A stretch of 64,000 bases of DNA, from assembly GCA_028282805.1 (NCBI GenBank), contig JANQHD010000033.1, positions 62,001 through 126,000 on the forward strand, given 5' to 3'. The stretch's first letter is position 1; the number at the start of each line of letters is the position of its first letter. The translations under genes were made by a program, and so were the position numbers. The DNA is from Phycisphaeraceae bacterium (GTDB lineage: Bacteria > Planctomycetota > Phycisphaerae > Phycisphaerales > Zrk34). Under the pieces are notes generated by a model. The model searched no databases. It worked only from the letters and a program-made list of their open reading frames with translations, and was not told the origin of the DNA. Shown piece by piece: positions 16,866-40,170 of the stretch.

Positions 16866-17048
16866 GTGATCGATACGAACTTGGGATGTCGTGCTGGATC
16901 GTGATCATCCGAGGCAAACGGTGCTGCCGGTCGGCCGTGGCCTAGCGTGCTGCGCGCTGTGGCAGGAGCGGGGGCGGGATGGTTTGGCATTTCGTAGGGC
17001 TCGTCACGGTCGGCGTTCGTGTCGCGGGCGTGGCGAGGGGGACAGGAT

Positions 17049-23600: not shown

Positions 23601-26600
23601 CCCAGGCACAGCCCGGCCAACACCCGAAGCCGAGCGAGCTGCGGTCGTACATGGCCCAGCGGACGCCGTCGTACATGATCCCCGCGTCGTTCGTGTTCGT
23701 GGACAACCTGGCGAAAACCCCGTCGGGCAAGATCGACCGGCGCGCGTTGCTTGGTGCTTCGAGCGGGGCGGCGGCCGAGGACGCCGGGGCGACGCGAGGG
23801 CCGACCGAAACGGAAGCCCGCTTGCGCGCGATCTGGGTGCAGGTGCTCGGCGTTGAAGCGGTGGCGCTCGACGACAACTTCTTCGACCTCGGCGGCCACA
23901 GCCTGCTGGCCACGCGCGTGATCGCGCGCATCCACGACGAGTTCGGCGTCGAGTTGCCGTTGCGCGTGATCTTCCAGCAGCCGACCGTGCGTGGGCTCGC
24001 GGCGGAGGTCGACGCGCTGCTCGCCGAGGGCGGGCAAGGTTCGGCGTTGCCCAGCGTGACGCACGACCCGCAGCGCCGGCACGACCCGTTCCCGCTGACC
24101 GACGTGCAGCAGGCGTACTGGATCGGCCGGATGGGCGCCTTCGATCTGGGCAACATCGCCACGCACGCCTACCTCGAACTCGAATCGGACGGCCTGGACA
24201 TCGACCGGCTGACCCAGGCCTGGCAGAAGGTGATCGACCGTCACGACATGTTGCGCGCGGTCGTGCTGGCCGACGGCCGGCAGCAGGTGTTGCGCGACCT
24301 GCCGGCGTACGTCATCGAGGTCGACGACCTGTGTGGCCTGGGCCCCGACGAGCGCGAGCAACGCCTGATGACCACGCGCCAGCGCCTCTCGCACCAGGTG
24401 TTGCCGCACGACCGGTGGCCGTTGTTCGAGATTTGCGCATCGCGCTTGAGCGACCGCACGCACCGCCTGCATTTGAGTTTCGATGCGCTGATCCTCGACG
24501 GTTGGAGCCACGAGGTCATGTTCCGCGAGTGGCAGCAGTTTTACACCGACCCGTCGCTGGTGTTGCCGCCGCTCGAGTTGACGTTCCGCGATTACGTGGT
24601 TGGCGTCGATCAGATGAAGGAGGGCGAGACGTACCGGCGTGCGGAGCAGTATTGGCGCGAGCGGCTGGTCACGCTGCCCGCGGCGCCGCAGCTGCCGCTG
24701 GTCAAAGACCCCGGCCAGATCGCCCGGCCGCGCTTCGGGCGACGCCGGGGCGTGCTGGACGCCGAGCGTTGGGGCCGGTTGAAGGAGTGGGCGAACGAGA
24801 AAGACATCTCGCCGTCGGCGCTGATGCTGGCGATCTTTTCCGACGTGCTGCGCCTGTGGAGCAAGGAGCCGGCTTTCACGCTGAACCTGACGCTGTTCAA
24901 CCGCCTGCCGGTGCACCCGCAGGTCGACGACGTGCTCGGCGACTTCACCTCGTTGACGCTGTTCGAGTCGTCGGGTGCGGCGGACGAGACGTTCGCGCAG
25001 CGTGCCTACCGCGTGCAGGCACGGCTTTGGGACGATCTGGATCACCGCGCGTTCACGGGCGTACAGGTGATCCGTGAGCTGGCGGTGATGCGCGACAACA
25101 CGCGCGCGGCGCTGATGCCCGTGGTGTACACCAGCACGCTGACGTTGAACCGTTCGGTGCAGGGCACCTCGCGGAAGTGGCTGGGCGAGAACGTTTTTGC
25201 CATCACACAGACCCCGCAGGTCTGGCTCGACCACGGCGTGTTGGAGCGCGACGGCTGCCTGGTGTTCGGGTGGGACGCGATCGAAGAGCTGTTCCCCGAG
25301 GGCTTGCTCGACGATATGTTCGCCGCCTACCGGCGCGTGGTGGACCGATTGGTCGACGAGCCCGGGTACTGGGACGCGGATTGGCCGACGATGATGCGCG
25401 ACCTGCTGCCGCCCGAGCAGGCGGCGCAACGCGCGGAGGTCAACCGCACCGCGCACCCGCTGCCGGACGGCCTGTTGCACACGGCGTTCGCGGAACAGGC
25501 GGCTCGGCGCGCCGACCAGCCGGCGGTGGTCGCCCCGGGCGCCACGGTCACCTACGCGCAGCTGGCTAACGCGGCAAACCACCTCGGCCAGAAGCTGCGT
25601 GACGCCGGCGCGCGGCCGAACCAACTCGTGGGCGTGGTGATGGACAAGGGCTGGGAGCAGGTCGCCGGCGCGATGGCGGTGCTCGCGTCGGGTGCGGCTT
25701 ACCTGCCGATCGACGCCGACGAACCCGAAGCGCGACTGCACATGCTGCTGGAAGACGGCCAGGTCGAACTGATCGTCACCCAGCCCGACGCCGACCGACG
25801 CATCGATTGGCCGCAGCATGTGCAGCGCTTTGTGGTCGACGCAACGGTGTTGAACGAGCCGGCGGCCGCGCTCGAACCGGTGCAGACCGGGGGTGACTTG
25901 GCTTACGTGATTTACACCTCGGGCTCGACCGGTCGGCCGAAGGGCGTGATGATCGACCACCGCGGCGCGCTGAACACGATCCGTGACGTCAACGAACGGT
26001 TCGGTGTGGAAGCGACCGACCGTGTGCTGGCGGTGTCGTCGATGACGTTCGACCTGTCGGTGTACGACGTGTTCGGCACGCTGGCGGCGGGCGGCACGAT
26101 CGTGATGCCCGCGGCTTCGGGCGCGAAAGACCCGGCGCACTGGGCGGAGCTGATCAACCAGCATGGCGTGACCGTGTGGAACTCGGCGCCGCCGTTGATG
26201 ACGCTGTTGGTGGAATACACCGAGGGCAAGGCGGGCCTGCGGCTGGAACCGCTGCGCCTGGTCATGCTCAGCGGCGACTGGATCCCCGTCGACATCCCCG
26301 ATCGCGTCCGCCGGCTCGCCGAAGGGGCGCGCGTGATCAGCTTGGGCGGCGCGACCGAGGCGTCGATCTGGTCGATCTTCTACCCGATCGAAGCGGTCGA
26401 CCCCGATTGGCCTAGCATCCCCTACGGCAAGCCGATGGCGAACCAGGCGTTCCACGTGCTCAACAGCGCGATGGCGCCCTGCCCGACGTGGGTGCCGGGG
26501 CAGCTGTACATCGGCGGCGTCGGTTTGGCGCAAGGCTACTGGCGCGACGAGCACAAGACGCGCACCCACTTCGTCACGCACCCGCGCACGGGCGAGCGGT

Positions 26601-28078
26601 TGTACCGCACCGGCGACCTCGGGCGGTACTTGCCCGATGGCAACATCGAGTTCCTCGGCCGCGAAGACAACCAGGTCAAGGTGCAGGGCCACCGCGTGGA
26701 GCTGGGCGAGGTCGAGTCGGTGCTCAAGCAACACCCGGCGGTGCGCTCGGTGGCCGTGGTGGCGACGGGCGATAAGCGCGCCGACCGCAAGCTGCGTGCG
26801 TGTTACGTCGCGTCGGCGGAGGGGCGCTTGGGCGGGGCGGAGTTCCGCGCGTGGGCGCAGGAGCGGTTGCCCGCGTACATGGTGCCGACCGCGTTCGTCA
26901 CGCTCGAGCGGATGCCGCTGACCGACAACGGAAAACTCGACCGCAAGGCGCTGCAAGCCATCGAGGCGGCCGACGATGCGCTCGCCGCGCCCGCCGCGGG
27001 CGCCGACTTGGGGCGGGCCGGCTTCGCGGGGCGCGTGGCGGCGATCGTCGGATCGGTCATCGGCCACGGCGCGATCGACGCGACGACCAACCTGCTGACG
27101 CTGGGCGCGACGTCGGTGGACATCATCCGCATCGCCAACGCGCTGGACCGGGAGATCGGGCAGCGGCCCGCCATCGATGAGTTCTACCGCGAGCCGACCA
27201 TCGACGCGCTCGTCCGTTTCTACCAGGCGCAGGGGCTCGGCGCGGGCGAGCCTGCGGCCGCCGATGCGGGCGTTGTCACCGACGACACCGCCGCGGCGAT
27301 CATCGACCGCTACGAGTTGATCTACGACCCGCAGCAGCGAAGGCAATTCAAGGAACAGCTGCCGGGTGTCCGTCACGACCTTGCCGGGCGCGAGAGCGTG
27401 CGCTTAACGGATGTATCCCTCGAAGGCGATGCGCTCGCGATGCTCACGGCACGGCGCAGCTATCGCGAGTTCACCCCGCAACCGATCGGTTTCGATGCGT
27501 TCAGCCGGTTGGTCGGTTGCCTGTGCGCCACGCCCACCGATCGCACGCCGAAGTATGCGTACGGTTCGGCCGGCGGTTTGTACCCCGTGCAGTCGTATTG
27601 GTGCGTGAAGCCGCGGCGCATCGCTTCGCTGCCGGGCGGCATCTATTACTGCCACCCCATCGACCGGGCGCTGATCCGCATCGCCAGCGACGGCGTGATG
27701 GACGAAGACATCTACGACCCGTTCATCAACGGCCCGATCTACCAATCGTCGGCGTTCACCGTGTTCTTCGTCGCGCAGCTGAGCGCGATCGCGCCGCTGT
27801 ACGGGGCCAAGAGCACGCACTTCAGCACGATCGAAGCGGGGCTGATGAGTCAGCTGCTCGAGATGTGCGCCCCCCTGTGCGACATCGGGTTGTGCCAGAT
27901 CGGGCAGGTCGATTTCGATCGCGTACGCGAGCGGTTTGAACTGGACGACACCCACGTGATGATTCACTCGTTGGTGGGCGGGGCGGTCGGGCCGGGCGGC
28001 GAGGCGTGGTCGCCCTACGTTGAAGACTACGCGATGCCGCACGCGGACGACGGGGATCACGAGGTCGATGAGATATGA
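20687..28078 (+). CDS. NRPS subunit, docking-C-A-T-Cy-A-T-Ox (Val then thiazole)
   Basis: 2463 residues. A TubC-like docking domain occupies about 1-60. Then come C (HHIVSDGWS, His203), A1 with code DAFWLGGTFK (valine-type), and T with Ser1072. A heterocyclisation domain follows, with the DALILDGWS form of the DxxxxDxxS motif starting at Asp1266 and a GDFTSL block. A2 has code DLYNMSLIWK, one change from the standard cysteine code, and T2 has Ser2143 in LGATS. The last 230 residues or so are an FMN nitroreductase-like oxidase (RRSYREFTPQPI, YAYGSAGGLYPVQ). Established Cy-A-T-Ox logic gives a Cys-derived thiazoline oxidised to a thiazole. The C-terminal position of Ox recalls bleomycin-type modules. 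Both ends overlap neighbours by 4 bp. Confidence 0.93.
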   Translation: MNVAQLIDDLRQRDIRVWADGAQLRYDAPAGAMTDELRDQLRSSKEQIIAHLQQPQDLPPPIERCEHDGAIPLSYAQQRLWFIDQLESGSVQYNLLRALKLGGALDVAALREALAEIIRRHDALRTTYTSANGRPHQHVAASLETPFEVVDLSHLSPEAQQKRSQEMAVEGYRRPFDLAAGPLICATLIKLSDREHVFLLAMHHIVSDGWSMGVLVRELTALYEAFAQGKPSPLPQLPIQYADYTRWQQQWLDGAVLDKQLGYWQRVLRDVQPLELPTDRPRTDELTYAGGHRRIALPDDLCRSLRRLARDQNATLFMVALAAFQVLLQRYTGQSDITVGTPYANRRKTELEQLIGFFVNTLVYRCDVADNPTFRQLLGRVRESVLEADAHQDLPFDLLVERLSPERDLGRNPLFQVMFAVQNVPDETFELQGVRIDPIEVENTTAKFDLTLWIEERDGHIVCTAEYAAQLFDAGTIDRLLQHYQQLLRSITAEPDRQISRLRVLPESERRQVLEGWNETRTDYERGRRIDEMFEQQVKATPDAIAVAAEEGQQSYAELNARANQVAHHLRTLGVSDGDRVGLFLERGLGMVAATLGILKAGGVYVPFDPGYPTERLVWMRRDAGVSVVLADATAGDAEWLAGDDVTRVGVSDEAIGRMPTDDPPRAGGPDPLAYVMYTSGSTGRPKGVCVRHRGVVRLVRQTDYVQLTERDVVLQFAPISFDAATFEIWAALLNGGKLVVFPPGLPSLSQLGGAIKDHGVTALWLTAPLFHQMVEEEREALAGVRYLLAGGDVLSVDHVRRMLEAMRPGCKLINGYGPTENTTFTCCHVMDHASVIGNTVPIGRPISNTRVYILDRELEPTPIGVVGELYAGGDGVAAGYLNRPELTAERFVPDPFGGGGATLYRTSDLARYRADGTIEFFGRRDNQVKVRGYRIELGEIESVLRGHEALGDVCVVVEEHGEDDKRIVAYAQAQPGQHPKPSELRSYMAQRTPSYMIPASFVFVDNLAKTPSGKIDRRALLGASSGAAAEDAGATRGPTETEARLRAIWVQVLGVEAVALDDNFFDLGGHSLLATRVIARIHDEFGVELPLRVIFQQPTVRGLAAEVDALLAEGGQGSALPSVTHDPQRRHDPFPLTDVQQAYWIGRMGAFDLGNIATHAYLELESDGLDIDRLTQAWQKVIDRHDMLRAVVLADGRQQVLRDLPAYVIEVDDLCGLGPDEREQRLMTTRQRLSHQVLPHDRWPLFEICASRLSDRTHRLHLSFDALILDGWSHEVMFREWQQFYTDPSLVLPPLELTFRDYVVGVDQMKEGETYRRAEQYWRERLVTLPAAPQLPLVKDPGQIARPRFGRRRGVLDAERWGRLKEWANEKDISPSALMLAIFSDVLRLWSKEPAFTLNLTLFNRLPVHPQVDDVLGDFTSLTLFESSGAADETFAQRAYRVQARLWDDLDHRAFTGVQVIRELAVMRDNTRAALMPVVYTSTLTLNRSVQGTSRKWLGENVFAITQTPQVWLDHGVLERDGCLVFGWDAIEELFPEGLLDDMFAAYRRVVDRLVDEPGYWDADWPTMMRDLLPPEQAAQRAEVNRTAHPLPDGLLHTAFAEQAARRADQPAVVAPGATVTYAQLANAANHLGQKLRDAGARPNQLVGVVMDKGWEQVAGAMAVLASGAAYLPIDADEPEARLHMLLEDGQVELIVTQPDADRRIDWPQHVQRFVVDATVLNEPAAALEPVQTGGDLAYVIYTSGSTGRPKGVMIDHRGALNTIRDVNERFGVEATDRVLAVSSMTFDLSVYDVFGTLAAGGTIVMPAASGAKDPAHWAELINQHGVTVWNSAPPLMTLLVEYTEGKAGLRLEPLRLVMLSGDWIPVDIPDRVRRLAEGARVISLGGATEASIWSIFYPIEAVDPDWPSIPYGKPMANQAFHVLNSAMAPCPTWVPGQLYIGGVGLAQGYWRDEHKTRTHFVTHPRTGERLYRTGDLGRYLPDGNIEFLGREDNQVKVQGHRVELGEVESVLKQHPAVRSVAVVATGDKRADRKLRACYVASAEGRLGGAEFRAWAQERLPAYMVPTAFVTLERMPLTDNGKLDRKALQAIEAADDALAAPAAGADLGRAGFAGRVAAIVGSVIGHGAIDATTNLLTLGATSVDIIRIANALDREIGQRPAIDEFYREPTIDALVRFYQAQGLGAGEPAAADAGVVTDDTAAAIIDRYELIYDPQQRRQFKEQLPGVRHDLAGRESVRLTDVSLEGDALAMLTARRSYREFTPQPIGFDAFSRLVGCLCATPTDRTPKYAYGSAGGLYPVQSYWCVKPRRIASLPGGIYYCHPIDRALIRIASDGVMDEDIYDPFINGPIYQSSAFTVFFVAQLSAIAPLYGAKSTHFSTIEAGLMSQLLEMCAPLCDIGLCQIGQVDFDRVRERFELDDTHVMIHSLVGGAVGPGGEAWSPYVEDYAMPHADDGDHEVDEI

Positions 28079-31000
28079 CGCCCGAGCAACTGCTGACGTA
28101 CCTGCAACGCCGCGGCGCTCGGTTGTGGGCCGAAGGGGACCGCTTGCGCATCAGCGCCCCGAAGGGTTTGATCAAGCCCGCCGTGCGGGAGCAGCTCGCC
28201 GAGCACAAACAGGCGTTGCTCGAACTCGTCGTCGGCGCGGAACCCGCAACGCAACCCACCCCGCGCGAGCCCGACGTCGGGCACGTGCCGCTGTCTTTCA
28301 CGCAGGGGTGGTTCTGGGGTTTGCAGCAGTGGAACCCCGCCAGCGCCGCGTACAACGTCCACATGGCGTTGCGTCTGGTCGGGCCGCTCGACCCGGCGGC
28401 GCTGCGGCGCAGCTTGGACGAGATCGTCCGCCGGCACCGGGTGTTGCGCACGCGCGTGGTCGCGGTCGGCGGTGAACCGCGGGGCGTGGTGGAGCACGAG
28501 GCGGCCGTCGAACTGCCGCTGGAGGACCTCGGCGATGTTGCAGATGACCGGCGCGACGGCGAAGCGCTGCGCGCGGCCGAGTCGCTGGCGCGCGAGCCGA
28601 TGGACCTGTCGCGCGCCCCGATACTCCGCGCTAAGCTCATCCGACTCGATACGCAAACGCACTTGTTCGTGCTCGTGACGCACCACATCGCGGCCGACGC
28701 GTGGTCGATGCGCATCTTCTGGCACGAATTGGCCACGCTTTATGAAGCTTATCGCAACGGTCGACCGTCGCCGCTCGGCGAACTCGAGACGCAATACACC
28801 GATTACGCCGCGGAGCAGAACGAGTTTCTCGAATCGGCGGCGTGCCGCGAGCAGCTGGACGACTGGGTGGATCAACTCGAGGGAGTCAAGATGATCGGCC
28901 GGGCCAACGGCGGCGGCCCGCAAGCCTCGCCGGAACATACATCTTGCGCCACCCGGGCATTCAAGCTGTCACGCGAGCTGTCGGACGGCATCCGGCAGCT
29001 GTGCCGGCGGCAGGGCGCCACGCTCTTCACGGGCACGCTGGCGGCGCTCAAGGCCTTGCTGCACGCTTATACACAGCAAACCGACCTCGCGATCGGCACG
29101 GCGGTCTCCAACCGCGCCCGCGGAGAGTACGAGCAACTGATCGGCACGTTCGCGAACACGCTCGTGCTGCGCACGCGGCTCGAGCGTGACACGACGTTCG
29201 AGCAGCTGCTCGGCCGGACGCGCGACGTGGTCGTGCAGGCGATGGCGCAGCAGGACCTGCCCTTCGCCAAGCTCGTCGAACATCTGCAGCCCAGCTCGCT
29301 GAGCCAGAGCAACCCGTTCTTCAACGTGATGTTCGTGGTCTTCGAGGGCGCTGCGGGCGAGGCGTTGGCGCTGCCCGGCCTTGCGACGAGCGCCGTTAAC
29401 CTGGTTTCGGGGGCGGCCATGTTCGACCTGAACATGGCGATCACCACCGATCGAGACGGGCGCATCGGCGGCTCGCTGGAATACGATGCACGCTTGTTCG
29501 ATGCGGATACCGTCGCGCAAATGCTCGCCGATTACGAGCTTTTGTTGGCGGCGATCGTCGCGGCCCCGGACCGGCCGATCAGCGGGGCGTTCGACCCGCC
29601 GGAATCGCAACGCCAGCGCCTACTGAAGCAATGGGATCGCGCCGGCGAGCCAGGCGCGACACAGGTCAAGCCACCGCGCCGGCGCGAGCCCGCCGCCACG
29701 CCCGAAACGGTGGGGCGGTGGACTAAAACCGAGCTCGCCTTGAAGCCGATCTGGCAGGAGCTGTTGGGCGTGGAACGGGTTGAACGCGACGACAACTTCT
29801 TCGACCTCGGCGGCCACAGCCTGGTTGCGATGCGCATCGTCGCCCGCGTACGCGAGGAACTGGGCGTCGAGCTGCCGCCGGCGATTCTCTTCGAGCGCCC
29901 CACGCTGCAGGCGATGGCGCAGGCGTTGGACCGCAAGTCGCCGGCGCAACCCCAGGCCGCGCAAACCGCGCCGCACGGCGATGGCGAGAGGCTTCCGCTG
30001 TCGTGTGCGCAGGAGCGCCTGTGGTACATCCACCAGATGGACCCGGAGGACAGCGCCTACAACATCCCCGGCGCGATCAGCCTGTCGGGCGATCTCGACG
30101 TCTCGGCGTTGCAGCAGAGCCTCACCGAGATCGTACGCCGCCACGAGGCGCTGCGCACGAGGTTCGCGATGACCGACGGCGTGCCGCACCAGGTGGTGGC
30201 GCCGCCGTACGAGTACGACCTGGCCACGGTCGACCTGCGCAACAAGGTGAGTGGATTGGATGACCCCGAGCTGCACGAGCGGCTGCACCACGAGGTGGCC
30301 AAGCCGTTCGACCTGGCCGAGGGGAACATGCTGCGCGCCGTGCTGTTCCGGCTGGACGAAGACCTGCACGTGCTGCTGCTGTCGATCCACCACATCGCGT
30401 TCGACGGCTGGTCGCTGGGTGTGTTTGTGCACGAGCTGAGCGCGTTGTACGAGTCGTGCCTGACGCAGACGCCCGCCGGGCTGCCGGAACTTGCGCAGCA
30501 GTACTCGGATTACGCGCGTTGGCAGAAGGAGCAGCTGGCGAGCAACGCGTGGGATCAACAACTGGTGTACTGGAAGCGCACGCTGGGCGGGGCCCCCGCG
30601 GTGCTGGAGTTTCCGACCGACCACCAGCGCCCCGAACTTCAAGCGCACCGGGGCGGGATGCTGGCGGCGTTTATACAGGAGCGGGTCACGCGAGACGTCG
30701 AGCGCGTGGCGCGTGAACTGGGCGTGACGCCGTACATGGTGTTGCTCTCGGCGTACGTGCTTTTGATGCAGAGCTGCACGGGGCAGACGGACATCACGGT
30801 CGGTACGCCCGTGGCCGGTCGGGGGCGACCGGTGTTTGAGCCGATCATCGGCTTCTTCGTGAACATGCTCGTGCTTCGCTTGGACCTTTCCGGCGACGTG
30901 CGTGTCCGGCAGGTCGTCGAACAGGTTCGCAAGGTGGCGTTGGACGCGTTCGACCACCAGGACTTGCCGTTCGACAAGCTGGTTGATGAGATCCAGCCGA

Positions 31001-33186
31001 CGCGGGACCTGAGCCGAAGCCCTTTGTTTCAAGTGGTATTTGCGCTTCAGAACAACCCTTCACCGCCGCTGCGGCTGGGCGACCTCGAGATCGAGGTGAT
31101 GCCTTTCGAGGTCACGACCACGCGGTTCGACCTCGAGATGCACATCCAGAAGAAGGGCGACGGTCTGGGCATCCGCTTCATCTACGACGCGGACCTGTTC
31201 CTGCGCGAGACCGCCGAGCGTTTCCTTGATCGGTACACCCGCGTGGTCGAGCTGCTGGTCGCCGACGTGGATCGCGCGGTGTGTGAGCTGCCCTTGTTGG
31301 ACGAGCGTGAGCGGGAGCAGGTGTTGTACGAATGGAACGACACCGCGCGTGACTACCCGCGCGACGCGGCCGTGCACGAGTTGTTTGAAAGGCAGGCCGC
31401 GACTCGGCCGGACGCCTGCGCGGTGCGTTACGGCCACGAGCGCATGAGCTACGGCGAGCTGAACGCCGAGGCCAACCGTTTGGCGCGTCACCTGCAATCG
31501 CTCGGTGTGCGGCCGGGCGACCTGGTGGGGGTGCTGTTGGACCGGTCGGTATCGCTCGTCGTGAGCCTGTTGGGTGTGCTCAAGGCGGGCGGGGCTTACG
31601 TGCCGCTCGACCCGGAATACCCGGCGGAGCGGTTGCGATTAATGCTCGAAGACACGGGCGCGGCGACGGTGTTGACCAAGGCCACGCACGCGACGGGCTT
31701 GTCGGGTTACTCGGGCCGGGTGTGTTGTCTGGACGAGTTGGACCTGTCGGGTGTCGACGAATGCAACCTTGCAGCGCCTTCGGGCGGCGACCAGCTGGCG
31801 TACGTGATGTTCACGTCGGGCTCGACCGGTCGGCCGAAGGGGGTGTGCGTCGAGCACCGTGCGATCAATCGGCTGGTGATCAACGTGGATTACGTCGAGC
31901 TCGGTCCGGCCGACCGCGTCGCGCAGGTGTCGAACAGCTCGTTCGACGCGGCGACGTTCGAGGTGTGGGGGGCGCTGCTGAACGGCGCGTGCCTGGAGGG
32001 TGTGCCGCGCGACGTGTCGTTGAGCCCGGCGGGCCTGGCGGAGTTTGTCCGCGAGCGCGGTTTGAGCGTCATGTTTCTGACCACGGCGTTGTTCAACCAG
32101 ATCGCGCGGAACCGACCCGACGCGTTTGCGCCCATGCGTTGCGTGCTGTTTGGCGGGGAAGCGGTGGACCCGGTCTGCGTGCGCGCGGTGCTTGAGTCGG
32201 ATGCGCCGGCGCACCTGTTGCACGTGTACGGGCCGACGGAAAACACCACTTTCTCCACTTGGCACGAGGTCACCGAGGTGCCGGCCGATGCGCTGACGAT
32301 CCCCGTCGGCAAGCCCATCAGCAACAGCAAGGCCTACATCCTCGACCGCATGCGCCGCCCTGCGCCGCTCGGGGCGGTGGGCGAGTTGTACGTCGGCGGC
32401 GACGGGCTGGCGCGGGGCTACTGGGACAACGACGCGCTGACGCGTGAGCTGTTCGTGGACAACCCGTACAACGGCAACGCCGGCGCGCGCCTGTACCGCA
32501 CGGGCGACCTGGCCCGTTACCGCAGCGGGGGCGCGATCGAGTTCGTGGGCCGGGCGGACAACCAGGTCAAGGTCCGCGGCTACCGCGTCGAGCCGGACGA
32601 GATCGAATCCACCTTGCGCGGCTGCCCCGGCGTGGAAGAGGTGTGCGTGCTGGCTATGCCCGACGGCAACGGCGCCAACCGCCTGGTTGCGTACGGCCTG
32701 AAAGATGCCGGCGGCGGCGGGCCGACGTACCACGAGGTGGTCGCGTACCTGAAAACACGTCTGCCGGAATACATGCTGCCCTCGGCTTGGGTGCTGGTGG
32801 ATCGATGGCCGTTGAACGCAAACGGAAAGATCGATCGCGCCGCCCTGCCCAAGCCCCAGCGCAACGGTGCCGATATGGAACGGGCCGGTCAGCCGCCCGC
32901 GAGCGACACCGAGCGCTTGCTGGCGTCGATCTGGCAACGCGTGTTGGAGGTGGACGGGGTCGATGTGCACGACAACTTCTTCGACCTCGGCGGGCACAGC
33001 CTGCTGGCGATGGAAACCATCGCGTCGCTCGAAAAGCAGACGGGCGTGCGGCTGAACCCGAAGGAGATGGTCCTGCAAACGCTCGGTCAGATCGCCGCAA
33101 CCGTCGACGCGCAGCTCGCGTCGCAAGCCAAACGGGGCGGCTTCTTCGCCAGGCTCAGGGGCGTGTTTTTGAAGAAGCGGGCGTGA
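28075..33186 (+). CDS. NRPS terminal subunit, docking-C-T-C-A-T, no release domain
   Basis: 1703 residues. A TubC-like docking domain (about 1-60) matches that of the preceding protein. C1 has HHIAADAWS at His203, where the motif Gly is Ala. Carrier T1 has Ser582, C2 has HHIAFDGWS at His772, the A domain (about 1090-1590) reads DAFFLGVTFK, and T2 has Ser1642. The first module has no A domain: a C-A linker remnant (ESQRQRLLKQWDRAGE) passes directly to T1. The protein ends 60 residues after T2 in a basic tail (GGFFARLRGVFLKKRA) with no thioesterase, reductase or terminal C domain. Release therefore needs a separate enzyme. Confidence 0.92.
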   Translation: MTPEQLLTYLQRRGARLWAEGDRLRISAPKGLIKPAVREQLAEHKQALLELVVGAEPATQPTPREPDVGHVPLSFTQGWFWGLQQWNPASAAYNVHMALRLVGPLDPAALRRSLDEIVRRHRVLRTRVVAVGGEPRGVVEHEAAVELPLEDLGDVADDRRDGEALRAAESLAREPMDLSRAPILRAKLIRLDTQTHLFVLVTHHIAADAWSMRIFWHELATLYEAYRNGRPSPLGELETQYTDYAAEQNEFLESAACREQLDDWVDQLEGVKMIGRANGGGPQASPEHTSCATRAFKLSRELSDGIRQLCRRQGATLFTGTLAALKALLHAYTQQTDLAIGTAVSNRARGEYEQLIGTFANTLVLRTRLERDTTFEQLLGRTRDVVVQAMAQQDLPFAKLVEHLQPSSLSQSNPFFNVMFVVFEGAAGEALALPGLATSAVNLVSGAAMFDLNMAITTDRDGRIGGSLEYDARLFDADTVAQMLADYELLLAAIVAAPDRPISGAFDPPESQRQRLLKQWDRAGEPGATQVKPPRRREPAATPETVGRWTKTELALKPIWQELLGVERVERDDNFFDLGGHSLVAMRIVARVREELGVELPPAILFERPTLQAMAQALDRKSPAQPQAAQTAPHGDGERLPLSCAQERLWYIHQMDPEDSAYNIPGAISLSGDLDVSALQQSLTEIVRRHEALRTRFAMTDGVPHQVVAPPYEYDLATVDLRNKVSGLDDPELHERLHHEVAKPFDLAEGNMLRAVLFRLDEDLHVLLLSIHHIAFDGWSLGVFVHELSALYESCLTQTPAGLPELAQQYSDYARWQKEQLASNAWDQQLVYWKRTLGGAPAVLEFPTDHQRPELQAHRGGMLAAFIQERVTRDVERVARELGVTPYMVLLSAYVLLMQSCTGQTDITVGTPVAGRGRPVFEPIIGFFVNMLVLRLDLSGDVRVRQVVEQVRKVALDAFDHQDLPFDKLVDEIQPTRDLSRSPLFQVVFALQNNPSPPLRLGDLEIEVMPFEVTTTRFDLEMHIQKKGDGLGIRFIYDADLFLRETAERFLDRYTRVVELLVADVDRAVCELPLLDEREREQVLYEWNDTARDYPRDAAVHELFERQAATRPDACAVRYGHERMSYGELNAEANRLARHLQSLGVRPGDLVGVLLDRSVSLVVSLLGVLKAGGAYVPLDPEYPAERLRLMLEDTGAATVLTKATHATGLSGYSGRVCCLDELDLSGVDECNLAAPSGGDQLAYVMFTSGSTGRPKGVCVEHRAINRLVINVDYVELGPADRVAQVSNSSFDAATFEVWGALLNGACLEGVPRDVSLSPAGLAEFVRERGLSVMFLTTALFNQIARNRPDAFAPMRCVLFGGEAVDPVCVRAVLESDAPAHLLHVYGPTENTTFSTWHEVTEVPADALTIPVGKPISNSKAYILDRMRRPAPLGAVGELYVGGDGLARGYWDNDALTRELFVDNPYNGNAGARLYRTGDLARYRSGGAIEFVGRADNQVKVRGYRVEPDEIESTLRGCPGVEEVCVLAMPDGNGANRLVAYGLKDAGGGGPTYHEVVAYLKTRLPEYMLPSAWVLVDRWPLNANGKIDRAALPKPQRNGADMERAGQPPASDTERLLASIWQRVLEVDGVDVHDNFFDLGGHSLLAMETIASLEKQTGVRLNPKEMVLQTLGQIAATVDAQLASQAKRGGFFARLRGVFLKKRA

Positions 33187-33204: not shown

Positions 33205-35130
33205 TCACAGGCTGCCGCGCTCGCGATCGGTTGACATCACGAGGCTCATGCACGTCTCGCCCTCACAGAACAGCAGGTTCGACGCGTGCATGCGGTCGAG
33301 CGCGGCGTTGACATCTGTTTCGGTGACGCCGTCGAACCGGCCCTTGAGCTGCGTGCGCTTGGTGGGCTTGTTGATCGCTTCGAGCAGTTCGCAACCCAGT
33401 TCGTCAACCTCGTGTTCGATGGCCACGTCGCTACGCGAATCGTAAACAGCGCCGCCCGACCCCCGCCGGGTCATGACGAGCTCCGGCCGATCCCCCGCGC
33501 CCGTGAGCCACCGATCCCGCCAACGGTTGATCTCACGTTGGATCCGATCGATCCATTTCGCCACGAGTTCCACGTGCGAGGCCTTGACGTTCGCGTCGGT
33601 GAAGAAGTACGCCATGCGCTCGAGGTCGGCGTCGCTGAACGGGTACACCATCGCGTAGAAATCGTAGGGTTGCAGCTTGAGGTTGTGTTCCTCGGCCAGC
33701 ACGAAGTACGGGCTGAACCGGTCGAACCGGATCGGGTACACCCCGGTCGGCGGCGGCAGGTGCAACAGCTTGGGGATGTCGTCGACGTACTTGCGGTAGA
33801 CCGCTTCCTCTTCGCCGGGGAAGCCGATCAGCAGGTTCCACCCGGGTTTCACGCCGTGCCTCAGGCACCGTTGGAGCAGTTGGACGTTCTGGAACGACGT
33901 GATGCCCTTCTTCATCAGCTTCAACGACGAGGTCGCCAACGATTCGATGCCCGGCTGGATCTCCCGCACGCCCGCCGCGGCGAGCACCTTCAGGTCCTTG
34001 TCCTTCAGGTTCGCCTTGGTCTCATAAAACAGGCACGCGCCCTCGGGCGGCGTGATGTGCGGGAACACCTCGCTGAGGTATTCCATGGGCATGATGTTGT
34101 CGACCGACTCGAACTCGGTCACCGCCGGCGCATACCCGAACAGCCGGTTGATCAGCCCGATCGCCTTGCCCGGTTGCATGGCGCGGTAGTTCATGGTCGT
34201 GCCGTTGAGCCCGCAGAACGTGCAGTGCGACCGCTCGCCCCACCAGCAGCCGCGCGAGGTCTCGAACAGCAGCTTGGGCGCGATGCGCTGACCGTGGTTG
34301 AACCGCCCGACCGATGCCATGAAATCGTCGTAGTCGAGCGGCAGGTCGGCGTCGATGTCGAGTTCGTCGCCGATCTCGCCCGAGTTGCCGTCGACTTGCA
34401 GGGCGAGGCGTCGGCGCGAGTACACGCCCGTGATCCGGTGGCATTCGTCACGCTGGCCCGCGAGCAGGCGCTCGACAAAAAGCGGGAATGTGCGCAGCGA
34501 GGGCCCCGAAAACACGTGGTCGATCGCGTCCACGTTCCGTGCGATCACCTGCCCCATGGTCGCCTCGCAGTTTGCGCCGCCGGCGATGACAACCAGGTCT
34601 GGGTTGCGCCGCTTCAACAGCCGCGCCAGCGCGAACGTCGCCACGTTCTGGGCAAACACCGACGTGAACCCGACCACGTCATAGCGGTCGAGCGCGTGCG
34701 CATCGATCAAGCCGTTGAGCACTTGTTCGAGTTGCTCGCGTTTATCCAGCAGCGCCTCGACATCTCCCGTCGACAGCCCGAGCTGCCGGGCGTGGCGCTG
34801 GAAATACTCGTCGCGGTTGTCCGGCCGGTCGGGGAATGCGACCCGTCGGAACAGCCAATCGCCCAAGCCCGCCATCATCGCGCTGACCGAGTCGGCGATC
34901 CGCGTGTACATCGCCACGCCGAAGTGCTCGGCGAGGTCGTGGTTAAAGTAGAAGATGTCCGCCCGCACGCGCTCGCCGAGCTGGGCGCGCAGCGCCGACC
35001 GAAGCTGGGTCAGCGCGATCGATGGCCGGTTGGCCGCGGCGAACGGCATGTTCACCAACGCGACCGCGCACACCCCGTCAGGTTCATGACGCGATGGAGC
35101 AAGGCTGTTCATAGTGTGAGAGGTGATCAT
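33205..35130 (-). CDS. B12-type radical SAM enzyme, RiPP-maturation (bottromycin-like) class
   Basis: 641 residues, convergent with the NRPS genes. The N-terminal half resembles a cobalamin-binding domain (VALVNMPFAAANRPSIALTQ). The cluster motif SRGCWWGERSHCTFCGLNG has spacing C-x7-C-x2-C at Cys295, 303 and 306. That spacing replaces the standard CX3CX2C and is known from RiPP maturases related to the bottromycin C-methyltransferases. The C-terminal 80 residues or so form a separate winged-helix-like domain. I predict C-methylation of an unreactive carbon in the peptide; no RiPP precursor was found beside it. I chose the ATG at 35130 behind a G-rich ribosome site; ATGs at 35154 and 35112 are possible. 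Confidence 0.8.
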   Translation of the reverse strand: MITSHTMNSLAPSRHEPDGVCAVALVNMPFAAANRPSIALTQLRSALRAQLGERVRADIFYFNHDLAEHFGVAMYTRIADSVSAMMAGLGDWLFRRVAFPDRPDNRDEYFQRHARQLGLSTGDVEALLDKREQLEQVLNGLIDAHALDRYDVVGFTSVFAQNVATFALARLLKRRNPDLVVIAGGANCEATMGQVIARNVDAIDHVFSGPSLRTFPLFVERLLAGQRDECHRITGVYSRRRLALQVDGNSGEIGDELDIDADLPLDYDDFMASVGRFNHGQRIAPKLLFETSRGCWWGERSHCTFCGLNGTTMNYRAMQPGKAIGLINRLFGYAPAVTEFESVDNIMPMEYLSEVFPHITPPEGACLFYETKANLKDKDLKVLAAAGVREIQPGIESLATSSLKLMKKGITSFQNVQLLQRCLRHGVKPGWNLLIGFPGEEEAVYRKYVDDIPKLLHLPPPTGVYPIRFDRFSPYFVLAEEHNLKLQPYDFYAMVYPFSDADLERMAYFFTDANVKASHVELVAKWIDRIQREINRWRDRWLTGAGDRPELVMTRRGSGGAVYDSRSDVAIEHEVDELGCELLEAINKPTKRTQLKGRFDGVTETDVNAALDRMHASNLLFCEGETCMSLVMSTDRERGSL

Positions 35131-35204
35131 CCGTACCCACCCCCAACCGTGCATGGTTCACCAAGCATCAGGTATACGAGCAGCGAGCACGGTCGACCCC
35201 ACCT

Positions 35205-35233
35205 ATTGTAAGCGGGCCCCAACCCACCACCAA
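35205..35233 (-). promoter_or_regulatory. Candidate promoter of the radical SAM gene
   Basis: On the minus strand TTGGTG (35228-35233) and TACAAT (35205-35210) are 17 bp apart, about 75 bp upstream of the start codon. It lies back to back with the plus-strand promoter. Confidence 0.5.
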
Positions 35234-35270: not shown

Positions 35271-35316
35271 GTTCACGCCGTTGACCGATCGCACGCGTGG
35301 AGGGGCGCCGCAGCAC

Positions 35317-36153
35317 ATGGACCCGGGTAACACGACAACCCACGCTTCCCCCACGCCGGGCGAGACCGGCGGGGCGGTGGAGCCGACGCTCTTTCAGGCC
35401 GAGGGGCGCTCGCTGTTCGGCTGCCTGTACAAGCCTGCCACGGCCAACCCCATCGCGGGCGTCGTGTTGTGCAACCCGATCGGCCACGAGTACATCCGCT
35501 GCCACCGCACGTGCCGGCAGCTCGCGATCGCGCTGAACAAGGCCGGCGTCGCCGTGTTACGCTTTGATTACTACGGCACGGGCGACTCGGCGGGCGAGAG
35601 CCACGAGGCGGAATTGGCGCACTGGGAATCGGACACGGCGCACGCGGTCGAACACCTGCGTCGCACGCACGGCGTGCCCGTTTGTGTAGTAGGGCTGCGG
35701 TTCGGTGCGACTGTGGCGTGGTGCGCCGGCGTCGCGGCGTCGCTCGCGGATCAGCTGGTGCTCTGCGACCCGGTCGTCAATGGCAGCCAATACCTCGAAG
35801 AACAGCAACGCCAGCACCACGAACTGGCGGTCAAGCACGGGCACCCCGACGCCGAAGTGAGCGACCGCGTCGAACTGATGGGCCACGACTACGCGCAGCA
35901 ACTGATCGAACAGATGCGCCGGTTGGACCTTGCGCATGTTGTGCCGCCTGCCGCCACGAAAGCGCTGTTGTTACACAACGCGTCGGACACGGTGGGCGAT
36001 CTCGAAGCGGTGTTGCGATCGCCTGCGCGGTCGTTGTCGGTGCGTTCGTACGAAGGGCCGCGCGTGTGGTTGGCCGAGCCCTTCGAAGGGGTGGTGCCGA
36101 TCGGCGCGATCCGTACCATCGTGGAATGGATCAAGCGGAACAACGATGCATGA
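35317..36153 (+). CDS. Alpha/beta hydrolase, exosortase-A-system hydrolase 2-like
   Basis: A 278-residue alpha/beta-hydrolase fold protein (LFGCLYKP, GVVLCNPIGHEYIRCHR, VLRFDYYGTGDSAGES). The nucleophile elbow reads GLRFGA, with Arg where serine hydrolases have Ser. The same GLRxGA elbow is characteristic, from memory, of the exosortase-A-associated hydrolase 2 family. It may therefore bind rather than hydrolyse, or use another residue. It is first in a five-gene operon with the TE and Sfp genes and overlaps the next gene by 8 bp. GGAGG is 13 nt before the ATG; a TTG at 35281 is an alternative start. Confidence 0.72.
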   Translation: MDPGNTTTHASPTPGETGGAVEPTLFQAEGRSLFGCLYKPATANPIAGVVLCNPIGHEYIRCHRTCRQLAIALNKAGVAVLRFDYYGTGDSAGESHEAELAHWESDTAHAVEHLRRTHGVPVCVVGLRFGATVAWCAGVAASLADQLVLCDPVVNGSQYLEEQQRQHHELAVKHGHPDAEVSDRVELMGHDYAQQLIEQMRRLDLAHVVPPAATKALLLHNASDTVGDLEAVLRSPARSLSVRSYEGPRVWLAEPFEGVVPIGAIRTIVEWIKRNNDA

Positions 36154-37027
36154 GCAAGCGGTCATCGTGGGTCAGACGCGCCGGATGGTCGGTGTCATCA
36201 CCGAACCGCGACCGGCGGGCGGCGGCGCGGGCGAGCCGGCCTACATCCTTTTGAACGCCGGCCTCGTGCACCGTGTCGGCCCGAGCCGCTTGTACGTGAA
36301 GCTCGCACGCCGCCTCGCGGCGCAAGGCGTCACCGTGTTGCGCTTCGACCACAGCGGGATCGGTGACAGCGAGGTCGCCCACGACAACCGGTCGTACATC
36401 GAGCGCACGATCATCGAGGCCGGCGAAGCGATGGACACGCTCGATCGTTTACGCGGCATCCGCCGTTTCGTCCTGCTGGGCGTCTGCAGCGGCGCGGCCA
36501 CCGCGTTCCGCGCCGCCACAGAAGACCCGCGCGTGGTCGGGGCCGTGCTGATCAATGCCCAGGCGTTCTACGACGAGCAGGAGTGGAACCGGCACGTGTT
36601 CAACCAGCGGTGGGCGAACGAGTACTGGACGCAATCGCTGTTCCGTTGGGACAGCTGGCGGCGCGCGTTGACCGGCCGCATCCAGTACAAGCGGCTGCTC
36701 GGCGTGCTTGGCCGGCGCGCGAAAAACCTGGTGTGGAAGGACAAGACCGTTCGCACAACTTCCGATCGCCTGCGGCGGGACATCCGGGCCTTGCTCGATC
36801 GCGAGGTGCGGTTGAGCATGATTTACTCTGAGGGCGACCGGGGGCTGGAGTATTTGAACCTTGCGTACAAGAAGGATGCGGCAGCGCGTCTGGTAGAATC
36901 GGGCGTCGCGGTGACGCTCATCCCGAACGCGGACCACACGTTTACGCTGCTGCGCGACCAGCGGCGGCTGATCGAGGCGATCGAACGATGGCGGCAGACA
37001 CCGCTTAACCCCGCCGAGGAGGCGTGA
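36146..37027 (+). CDS. Alpha/beta hydrolase, exosortase-A-system hydrolase 1-like
   Basis: 293 residues, partner of the preceding gene. The fold landmarks are ILLNAGLVHRVGPSRLYVKL, VLRFDHSGIGDSE and the elbow GVCSGAAT. In this elbow the central residue can be read as Cys-Ser, in place of GxSxG. The acid/base end is NADHTF. In exosortase gene sets the two hydrolases occur together with an acyl carrier and AMP ligase, so a thioester- or carrier-linked substrate is plausible. Here the carrier partner could be the NRPS. The start ATG at 36146 lies inside the previous gene. Confidence 0.72.
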   Translation: MHEQAVIVGQTRRMVGVITEPRPAGGGAGEPAYILLNAGLVHRVGPSRLYVKLARRLAAQGVTVLRFDHSGIGDSEVAHDNRSYIERTIIEAGEAMDTLDRLRGIRRFVLLGVCSGAATAFRAATEDPRVVGAVLINAQAFYDEQEWNRHVFNQRWANEYWTQSLFRWDSWRRALTGRIQYKRLLGVLGRRAKNLVWKDKTVRTTSDRLRRDIRALLDREVRLSMIYSEGDRGLEYLNLAYKKDAAARLVESGVAVTLIPNADHTFTLLRDQRRLIEAIERWRQTPLNPAEEA

Positions 37028-37029
37028 CG

Positions 37030-38637
37030 ATGAACCGCAACGCCGCGTGCTGCGCCCTGCTCGTGTCGCTGATGCTCGGCGCGACCAGCTGCGCCAGGGC
37101 CGAGGAACGGGCCAAGCCCGCCGCGGCGCCGGCGGCGCAGGTTCAAACGGACACCCAACCCGCGGTCGCGATCGAACTCGACCGACTCGAGTTCACCGCC
37201 GAGCGCGCGCACGTGCTGCGGTCTTCCGTGTTCTTTAACCCTCGCACGCAAGGCGGGGCGGAGCTTTATTTCAAGGAATACGAAGACCACCACGCGGCGC
37301 GGCTGTTCAACGTGTTCGAGTGGGAGGCGCTGAACTCGACCGATCACGCGTCATTCGCCACGGCCCTGGAGAAACGCCGCCCGTACCTGGAGAAGATGGC
37401 CGACAGCCACGACAAGCTCATCTACGTGATCGCGCTGACGCCCGAGTGGTTGAGCCGGTCGAAAGACAAGCGGGTGGTCGAGGGGCCATGGCGCAGGCTC
37501 CACGCGCACCGCCCGAAGGACTACCGGCAATGGCGCCGGCTCGTGACCACCGCGGCCGGGTTCTTCAAGCAGTTCGACGGCGCCGAGCGCTACTACGAGG
37601 TGTGGAGCGAGCCGGACCTCGGGTACTGGCAGGAGGGCATGGACGAGTACCTGGAGTTGTACGCGCAGACCGCCGCCGCGATCAAGGCGGCCGACCCGCA
37701 GGCCAAGGTGGGCGGCGCCACCGTGAACGGATGGGACGGCAGGCTGCGCGCGTCGCCCGGCCGCGACCCGGTCAACATCGAGCTCATCCGCTACGCGGGC
37801 CGGCGAAACGCCCCGCTCGATTTCGTCTCGTGGCATCACTACGCGAGCCTGCGCGGCGATCTGATCGGCAAGGCGACCGCGGCATACGACCGGGCGGTAC
37901 AGCAGTCCGGCCTAGCCAAGAAGCCCGAGTACGTGATCTCGGAATGGAACAACGTCTCGCTCTTCCGCGACACCGCCTACGCGCCGGCGATGCTGACGGA
38001 GACTTTTCTCGACATCTACAAGTCGAAGGTCGACGTCCACACGCTCGCCGCGTGGGAGGACTTCCACGCCAAGCGGGACAACTCGGGCTACGGGCTCGTC
38101 CGGCAGGGCGGACACAAGAAGCCCGTGTACCACGCGTACCGCTTTCTCGACTCGTTGAGCCGCGACACCGCGGGCGTTGCGCTGATCGAGATGAAAGACG
38201 AGCAGGCCCAGGTTGGCACGCAACGGGTCCTGATTTCGAAGAAGAACGCGCACACGTACGAGTTGGTGTGTTGGCAGATCGGCCACGAGCCGCCCATCGC
38301 CGCCGCGGTCGATTACCTGTTGTCGCGGGGCATGACCCGGCGCGACCTGATGGCGTACGGCGGGTTCGACGAGCTGGCCCAGGCGATTCGCGGGGCGAAG
38401 GCGCGGGACCCGGCGCACGCGGGCTTGTTCAAGACCGCCGCACGCGTGGCGCGCGACCACCGGCGGCAGTCGCGGCCGCTGCGCCTCGTGTTCACCGGGC
38501 GCGAGGCGGTGACCGTGTTGAAGGCGGAAGCCGTTCGGTCAGACTTGGCCGAGAAAACCGTAAAAGTTGCGGGCAACCGATTGGAGTGCGACATGCGCAT
38601 GTTCGAGGTGGTCCGCTTGGAGTTGGAGGTGCGATGA
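37030..38637 (+). CDS. GH39-like glycoside hydrolase lipoprotein
   Basis: 535 residues. The N-terminus is a probable lipoprotein signal with GATSC at Cys21. A TIM-barrel hydrolase core follows: RYYEVWSEPDLGYWQ gives the acid/base Glu (SEP replacing NEP), FVSWHHYAS follows, and VISEWNN gives the candidate nucleophile Glu. The C-terminal part is beta-sandwich-like. Family 39 includes beta-xylosidases and alpha-iduronidases. Its place in the NRPS tailoring operon is unexpected: AGGAGG serves its ATG and the stop overlaps the TE start (ATGA). It may trim a sugar or act on polysaccharide; the substrate is unknown. Confidence 0.72.
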   Translation: MNRNAACCALLVSLMLGATSCARAEERAKPAAAPAAQVQTDTQPAVAIELDRLEFTAERAHVLRSSVFFNPRTQGGAELYFKEYEDHHAARLFNVFEWEALNSTDHASFATALEKRRPYLEKMADSHDKLIYVIALTPEWLSRSKDKRVVEGPWRRLHAHRPKDYRQWRRLVTTAAGFFKQFDGAERYYEVWSEPDLGYWQEGMDEYLELYAQTAAAIKAADPQAKVGGATVNGWDGRLRASPGRDPVNIELIRYAGRRNAPLDFVSWHHYASLRGDLIGKATAAYDRAVQQSGLAKKPEYVISEWNNVSLFRDTAYAPAMLTETFLDIYKSKVDVHTLAAWEDFHAKRDNSGYGLVRQGGHKKPVYHAYRFLDSLSRDTAGVALIEMKDEQAQVGTQRVLISKKNAHTYELVCWQIGHEPPIAAAVDYLLSRGMTRRDLMAYGGFDELAQAIRGAKARDPAHAGLFKTAARVARDHRRQSRPLRLVFTGREAVTVLKAEAVRSDLAEKTVKVAGNRLECDMRMFEVVRLELEVR

Positions 38638-39404
38638 ACCGTGCGGATGCCGAGCTGTGGTTGACGTGTTTGCGCCGCGAGGCCGGGGCGCAACTGCGGT
38701 TGCTCTGCCTGCCTTACGCCGGTGGGGGCACGCTGGCGTACCGGCCGTGGGCCGAGCGTTTGCCGCACGGGGTCGAGTTGTGGGCGGCGCAACTGCCGGG
38801 GCGTGAGAAGCGGTTGGCCGAGCCGCCGCCCGACGCGATGTCGCCGATGGTCGCAGCGATCGCCGATGCCGTCGAGCCGTGGGACGCGACGTCGTTTGCG
38901 GTGTACGGCCACAGCATGGGCGCGCAGTTGGGTTTTGAACTGGCACGCGAGTTGCGGCGCCGCGGCGCAAGCGGGCCGACCCGCCTGCTGGTCAGCGGTT
39001 GCGTCGCGCCGCAGGTGCCGTGCCCTTACCCGCCGATCCACGCGCTGTCCGACGGGCCGTTCATCGAAGAGCTGAAAAAACTCGGCGGGACGCCGGACGA
39101 GGTGTTGCGGTCGGCGGAGTTGATGGCGTTCGTGCTGCCGGTGATCCGGGCGGATATCACACTCTCCGAGAACTACGCCTGCCGCGATGAGCCGCCGCTC
39201 GGTTGCCCGATCAACGTGTACGGCGGCCTGGCCGACCCGGTCACGGATCGCGAGGGTTTGGATGCGTGGCAGCGGCAGACAACCGGGCCGTTCAAGTTGC
39301 GGATGTTCCCCGGCGACCACTTCTTCATCGACGCGTGCGGGGCGGTATTCTTCGACGCGTTGGCGGCCGACCTGCAACCGAGCCCGACGGATTCGCTTAA
39401 ATGA
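38634..39404 (+). CDS. Type II thioesterase for NRPS editing or release
   Basis: A 256-residue alpha/beta hydrolase of the type II TE family (RLLCLPYAGGGTLAYRPWAE at the start). The nucleophile Ser94 is in YGHSMGAQ. An Asp in GGLADPVT and a His in PGDHFF complete the triad. Such enzymes remove misprimed acyl groups from carrier proteins. Because the NRPS chain has no cis thioesterase, it may also release the peptide (inference). It is translationally coupled to the gene before it, and the PPTase gene follows after 16 bp. Confidence 0.9.
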   Translation: MNRADAELWLTCLRREAGAQLRLLCLPYAGGGTLAYRPWAERLPHGVELWAAQLPGREKRLAEPPPDAMSPMVAAIADAVEPWDATSFAVYGHSMGAQLGFELARELRRRGASGPTRLLVSGCVAPQVPCPYPPIHALSDGPFIEELKKLGGTPDEVLRSAELMAFVLPVIRADITLSENYACRDEPPLGCPINVYGGLADPVTDREGLDAWQRQTTGPFKLRMFPGDHFFIDACGAVFFDALAADLQPSPTDSLK

Positions 39405-39420
39405 TGAGCGTCTTTTCACG

Positions 39421-40170
39421 ATGAGTGCGCTACCCGAGTGGCCAGCACCGACCGAGACGCCGACGCTCGCCGGCGACCGTGTTCACGTCTGGCAGGTGGC
39501 GTTGGGGTGTTCGGATCGCGTGGCCGCAGGCCTGTCGCGGGCGCTGGGGCCCGCGGAGTTGGCGCGGGCCGAGGCGTTTCGGTTCGATACGGATCGGCAC
39601 GACTTTGTGGTCAGGCGCGGCGTGTTGCGCCGCGTCCTCGCGGGCTACCACGGGTGCGCCCCGGGTGAGTTGACGTACACGCACACGCCGTTCGGCCAAC
39701 CGGTGTTGTGCGGGCCGGGGAACGCGGCGGGCTTGCGGTTCAGCGTGTCGAGTTCGGCGGGGTGGGCGCTGATCGCGGTGGCGCGCGATCGGGCGGTCGG
39801 TGTGGACCTTGAGCGTGTCGAGCCGAGGCGGGCCGATGACGATCTGGCCACCCGCTTCTTTGCCCCGGGTGAGGTCGAACAGTTAGCCAAGTTAAAAGGC
39901 CAAGTTAGGGTGCGTGCGTTTTTCGATTGTTGGACGCGCAAGGAGGCGTACATCAAGGCTCGCGGTGAGGGCTTGTCGCTTGCGCTGGACTCCTTCGGTG
40001 TGCCGGTCCAGGCGGATCGGGCCGACGGTTTGCTCTGGAGCAGCGAGGGGCTTGGCGAGGTGGACCGCTGGGCGATGGAGGCGTTGCCCTGCGGGTCGGA
40101 TTACGCCGGCTGCGTGGTGGGCGAGGGGCGCGGATGGACGCTGGACCTGTGGCGATGGTCGCTGGGGTAG
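39421..40170 (+). CDS. Sfp-type 4'-phosphopantetheinyl transferase
   Basis: 249 residues. It transfers phosphopantetheine from CoA to the carrier-domain serines of the NRPSs. Two signature blocks are present: VGVDLERVEP with the Mg-binding acidic residues, and FFDCWTRKEAYIKARGEGL (the WxxKEAxxK motif). The length matches the broad-specificity Sfp group rather than AcpS. It is last in the operon that begins at 35317, and supplies activation for all six carrier domains of the cluster. Confidence 0.93.
   Translation: MSALPEWPAPTETPTLAGDRVHVWQVALGCSDRVAAGLSRALGPAELARAEAFRFDTDRHDFVVRRGVLRRVLAGYHGCAPGELTYTHTPFGQPVLCGPGNAAGLRFSVSSSAGWALIAVARDRAVGVDLERVEPRRADDDLATRFFAPGEVEQLAKLKGQVRVRAFFDCWTRKEAYIKARGEGLSLALDSFGVPVQADRADGLLWSSEGLGEVDRWAMEALPCGSDYAGCVVGEGRGWTLDLWRWSLG

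Follow-up and report, generated by a model that had tools for sequence, protein, structure and literature searches.

The question raised by a stretch of 64,000 nucleotides from a Phycisphaeraceae genome, here called the window, is what substrate would be served by a radical SAM methyltransferase of a RiPP-type family whose gene lies in an NRPS cluster. An initial annotation, made from the letters alone, had proposed that the enzyme C-methylates the beta-carbons of Val or Ile on a non-ribosomal, thiazole-containing peptide. The analysis supports this proposal, with the substrate and the site still to be read as predictions, and the enzyme would accordingly modify the non-ribosomal peptide of the adjoining NRPS, a reading to which a probability of roughly 0.6 is given. 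It is probable because the gene is located in an NRPS cluster and because the closest relatives of the enzyme, spread over six phyla, are mostly linked to NRPS genes.

The minus-strand ORF opens with an ATG at 35154 and ends with a stop at 33205 in the translation. The initial annotation had given 33205-35130 and no strand; its stop stands, whereas 35130 is an internal, in-frame ATG at residue 9 of the longest ORF. Relatives begin near residues 27-31, hence the starts at 35130, at 35112 and at GTG 35076 are also possible. An ORF on the plus strand over the same gene (33286-35211) was rejected as an antisense shadow. The protein matches the TIGR03975 model over nearly its full length at 540 bits (cut-off 281.85), which as a sequence match is far beyond chance. 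The cluster-binding motif with its WWGERSH spacer, already pointed out in the initial annotation, is present (GCWWGERSHCTFCGLNG / RGCWWGERSHCTFCGLNG), and an alignment of 47 relatives shows no variation at its cysteines C303, C311 and C314. The Cx7Cx2C spacing is unusual and is reported to be common to PoyB/PoyC and the bottromycin methyltransferases (PMC5682303, PMC11285071).

A structure model built from 47 aligned sequences reached a mean pLDDT of 90.9 and a pTM of 0.90 for the whole protein. Its top matches among solved structures (residues 23-557, with a Foldseek search in addition) are the cobalamin radical SAM enzymes OxsB (Z 20.0), TokK (18.9), CysS (18.1), TsrM (17.9) and MgmA (17.6), and the structures of TokK and CysS were, by their titles, solved with pantetheine-bound substrates. 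This fold match supports a predicted N-terminal B12-binding domain even though the Pfam B12-binding model scores 22.9 bits, under its cut-off of 32.1. Judged by family, motif and predicted fold, its product is a class B (cobalamin-dependent) radical SAM C-methyltransferase. The predicted C-terminal winged helix, when modelled alone, has the sactipeptide maturase 5why as its first Foldseek row (E 0.04); 5why and the RRE protein TbiB1 score Z 7.2, which is level with the Z 7-8 of MecI/MarR-type winged helices. As winged-helix regulators score about equally, the domain is a possible RRE (RiPP recognition element), and its assignment as a proven RRE was rejected on account of these ties.

The surroundings of the gene are those of an NRPS pathway (Table 1). 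Three NRPS genes (17019-33186, plus strand) end tail to tail with the methyltransferase gene, and a plus-strand operon with tailoring functions (35281-40170) lies on its other side, which is the placement first described for it. Its opposite strand sets the methyltransferase gene outside the NRPS operon. TubC-type docking domains are found in the second and third synthetases. The specificity codes of the A domains are, in order, DAFFLGVTFK, DAFWLGGTFK, DLYNMSLIWK and DAFFLGVTFK, and agree with what are taken to be the literature codes for Ile-like (9/10), Val (10/10), Cys (9/10) and Ile-like (9/10) residues. The Cy domain of the Cys module holds the heterocyclisation motif DxxxxDxxS, its A code is Cys-like with one letter off, and a nitroreductase-type Ox domain is present; hence the product likely carries a thiazole, as had been supposed. 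The predicted chain would read Ile-like - X - Val - thiazole (from Cys) - X - Ile-like, with X for a residue without assignment. Two C-PCP modules, one each in the first and the last synthetase, are without an A domain; a thioesterase is missing from the last synthetase. In the tailoring operon, both alpha/beta hydrolases fall short of the exosortase-associated model's cut-off and were rejected as exosortase-associated proteins, and the GH39-like protein has a lipoprotein-like start.

Table 1. Features of the NRPS cluster and of the methyltransferase gene, in positions of the window
Feature	Position	Strand	Basis or remark
NRPS 1: A(Ile-like)-PCP-C-PCP	17019..20690	+	
NRPS 2: TubC-C-A(Val)-PCP-Cy-A(Cys)-PCP-Ox	20687..28078	+	
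A domain with Val code DAFWLGGTFK	22286..23332	+	
Ox domain (nitroreductase family) of the thiazole-forming module	27446..27967	+	Pfam Nitroreductase 40.4 bits
NRPS 3: TubC-C-PCP-C-A(Ile-like)-PCP, no thioesterase in cis	28075..33186	+	
Cobalamin-dependent radical SAM C-methyltransferase gene (TIGR03975)	33205..35154	-	649 aa, longest ORF
Predicted C-terminal winged-helix domain, residues 557-638	33241..33486	-	whole-protein model; domain modelled alone
Cluster-binding motif C303-x7-C311-x2-C314 (CWWGERSHCTFC)	34213..34248	-	translation
Predicted N-terminal B12-binding region, about residues 27-260, boundary approximate	34375..35076	-	fold match to OxsB, TokK, CysS, TsrM
Alpha/beta hydrolase	35281..36153	+	below cut-off of exosortase-associated model
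Alpha/beta hydrolase	36149..37027	+	below cut-off of exosortase-associated model
GH39-like protein	37024..38637	+	Pfam Glyco_hydro_39 64.1 bits
Type II thioesterase	38634..39404	+	Pfam Thioesterase 144.6 bits
Phosphopantetheinyl transferase, start inferred	39421..40170	+	Pfam ACPS 63.5 bits; HetI-like

The family is named for RiPP maturation and the gene stands on the strand opposite to the NRPS genes, both of which would fit a RiPP maturase that acts on a precursor encoded elsewhere in the genome, next to an NRPS that is unrelated or adjacent by accident. The search for a precursor argues against this. No precursor peptide was found among the small ORFs of the 33-36 kb region and the larger gaps of the cluster, in keeping with the earlier remark that none was in view; the gaps flanking the methyltransferase gene measure 18 bp (on the side of the NRPS) and 126 bp, and the small ORFs in the flanking and larger cluster gaps have a third-position GC of about 0.4-0.7, as against about 0.8-0.9 in most real genes. 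Likewise, no NHLP leader was found in the window's genome by a search that does detect such leaders in other genomes, and no relative of the precursors of genome G075 (described below) by a search run without a positive control. The bottromycin core motif was not found in those loci in which it was sought.

The neighbourhoods of related enzymes point to the NRPS. A scan of genome contigs with an alignment returned 552 relatives, of which the best 80 were kept; a scan with the single protein gave none. Among these best 80 of 552, NRPS condensation and adenylation domains occur in the fetched flanks of 14 of the 22 loci at 39-49% identity (L056-L077), while condensation domains occur in none of the 58 more distant loci, L091 having adenylation-like domains only (14/22 versus 0/58, Fisher p 2e-10). 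Because the split between L077 and L078 was picked after the data were seen, a fresh sample was taken from 393 genomes of the Streptomyces genus of L065 and 396 genomes of Acidobacteriota, the phylum of L076. Here six of nine new loci (43-50% identity) were NRPS-adjacent against none of 11 controls at 32-40% (p 0.002), rows that are not fully independent since some of the new loci are closely related to earlier ones. One of the three misses is a contig of 3.5 kb and another (L210) has a PPTase, together with MbtH-like and diaminopropionate-type genes read by eye. In 397 further genomes of the class no more members were found outside the window's own genome, and the plasmid records listed held only members at 30-36% identity. 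The nearest NRPS domain lies within 3.1 kb in 20 NRPS-adjacent relatives and on the same strand in 17 of them; the window is an opposite-strand case among the NRPS-adjacent loci. Val codes are not universal in the relatives' NRPSs. In one relative (genome G1562, L213:66-8804), the TIGR03975 gene is flanked by two NRPS genes that have the Cys code DLYNMSLIWK and Ox-type domains in common with the window, and by these features it is likely a second thiazole-forming cluster of the same kind.

In a maximum-likelihood tree of 67 rows, with which an earlier tree of 64 rows agrees, the window enzyme falls into a branch of 33 rows (support 100/100). NRPS domains stand within 10 kb in 21 of these 33 loci and in none of the other 34 rows, and the 21 belong to Planctomycetota, Acidobacteriota, Actinomycetota, Bacteroidota, Gemmatimonadota and Pseudomonadota. 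The NRPS label requires seven changes on the tree as compared with 18.1 in shuffles, none of 500 being as low. Hence the homologues of this branch mostly adjoin NRPS genes, rather than being always paired with a RiPP precursor.

The branch is NRPS-rich but not NRPS-only. The nearest relative of the window enzyme in the tree, L004 from genome G075 of the same order, is placed beside it with a weak support of 95/57, and the two join L076 and L212 at 96/91. Both enzymes belong to TIGR03975, share 41-42% identity and have the same motif spacing; however, L004 has no NRPS and sits in a same-strand RiPP operon, and the branch is for this reason not strictly an NRPS one. This operon (L028:3304-3851, L028:1721-5566 and L027:17868-19790, all on the minus strand) encodes two tandem Cys-rich peptides of 64 residues, identical at 55 of 64 positions, with a leader MTTKTFKLVN... 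and a tail with eight or more Cys, besides two PapB-like radical SAM/SPASM maturases, transport genes, an FKBP-type isomerase (recognised by eye), the TIGR03975 enzyme and an APH-type kinase. From its gene content it looks like the operon of an undescribed Cys-rich peptide with C-methylation. That the closest enzyme in the tree is encoded with two such precursors favours a RiPP maturase in the window as well, yet the NRPS linkage of the branch and the searches at the locus and in the genome speak against it, and this explanation is rather unlikely. Within the branch, at least one change of substrate class has probably taken place.

About a third of the branch has no NRPS in the fetched flanks. 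Most of these rows are short contigs, several of which have a thioesterase, a PPTase or a dioxygenase beside the gene (all but the thioesterase read by eye); the true exceptions are L072, L073, L074 and L211, which have no clear context. In two of these, from Acidobacteriota (L074:7976-14372 and L211:3010-11904), a shared non-NRPS setting with MacB-like ABC transporter genes and a receptor-like gene was seen by eye, possibly a third context of the branch. Such rows, together with the opposite strand, would suit a bystander gene with an unrelated role, e.g. a conserved non-biosynthetic function, as would a second TIGR03975 gene of the window's genome (L003:8443-10500, minus strand, contig C45), which lies beside gyrB without biosynthetic context, its neighbours including neither an NRPS nor a visible precursor. 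However, this paralogue is only 34% identical to the window enzyme and is placed in the non-NRPS part of the tree, and the NRPS linkage holds across the branch in six phyla, so that a bystander is very improbable. The opposite strand, the RiPP operon of L004, the third of the branch in which no NRPS was seen and the lack of a Val code in some of the relatives' NRPSs do count against modification of the NRPS product as well.

If the enzyme modifies the product of its NRPS, the chemistry may be expected to follow that of PoyC and DscE. The beta-hydrogen of a Val or Ile-type residue would be abstracted by a 5'-deoxyadenosyl radical, with the methyl group coming from methylcobalamin; this would yield tert-leucine or beta-methyl-isoleucine (+14 Da each), and the enzyme may act either on the carrier-bound or on the released peptide. 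The Val and Ile-like A codes suit such sites. A gene linked to an NRPS would look the same if its product methylated a building block before the NRPS incorporates it, be it a free amino acid or another small molecule; TsrM, a member of this superfamily, puts a methyl group on free tryptophan, and NRPS pathways commonly use premethylated building blocks. This is nonetheless quite unlikely, as the A codes fit Val and Ile-like substrates of the ordinary kind, characterised enzymes with the motif (PoyC and the bottromycin methyltransferases) have peptides as their substrates, and that of DscE is a finished peptide.

A broader view, which is advanced tentatively and at somewhat less than even odds, is that TIGR03975 holds a dedicated NRPS-tailoring branch in at least six phyla, whose members would act without a leader on carrier-bound or released peptides and which would have passed through at least one switch between NRPS and RiPP substrates (the window versus G075). 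If so, a whole branch would be misnamed as 'RiPP maturation' enzymes, and the product of the window's cluster would be a thiazole peptide that contains tert-leucine or beta-methyl-isoleucine. Annotation pipelines label all such enzymes 'RiPP maturation', which may mislead in NRPS clusters. Tert-leucine and related bulky residues are prized in drugs and difficult to install; a defined branch that installs them on non-ribosomal peptides would offer a genome marker for these products and C-methylation catalysts with no requirement for a leader peptide. The pair of the window and G075 offers a natural experiment on the passage of a single enzyme type between ribosomal and non-ribosomal substrates. 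The new part is the multi-phylum NRPS-linked branch, of which a literature search with few subscription papers in its scope found no account, whereas the NRPS crossover itself is already known.

Among the closest known systems is DscE, described in 2025 from the discodermin NRPS cluster of 'Candidatus Entotheonella monilis', which converts Val5 of the non-ribosomal discodermin to tert-leucine; in vitro, this methylation was seen at Val5 of discodermin D (PMC12858407). As a cobalamin radical SAM enzyme that methylates valine on a non-ribosomal peptide, it means that the crossover is no longer unprecedented. Both are cobalamin radical SAM C-methyltransferases in NRPS clusters with a Val module; the action of DscE on its peptide was shown in vitro, whereas the window enzyme is known from sequence and model, and the NRPS chain of the window is shorter and of thiazole type, with the methyltransferase gene on the opposite strand. 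PoyC and PoyB of polytheonamide and BotRMT1-3 share the Cx7Cx2C motif and the family with the window enzyme, and PoyC performs C-beta methylation of Val and Ile residues, but these enzymes act on ribosomal precursors in RiPP clusters, whereas the window has an NRPS and no precursor. CysS of the cystobactamid NRPS cluster and TokK of the carbapenem pathway share the cobalamin radical SAM fold (Z 18-19), and CysS belongs to an NRPS pathway; however, they are of other sequence families (on the KedN5 model, with its cut-off of 700, the protein of the window reaches 26.9 bits), and neither of them acts on Val or Ile residues.
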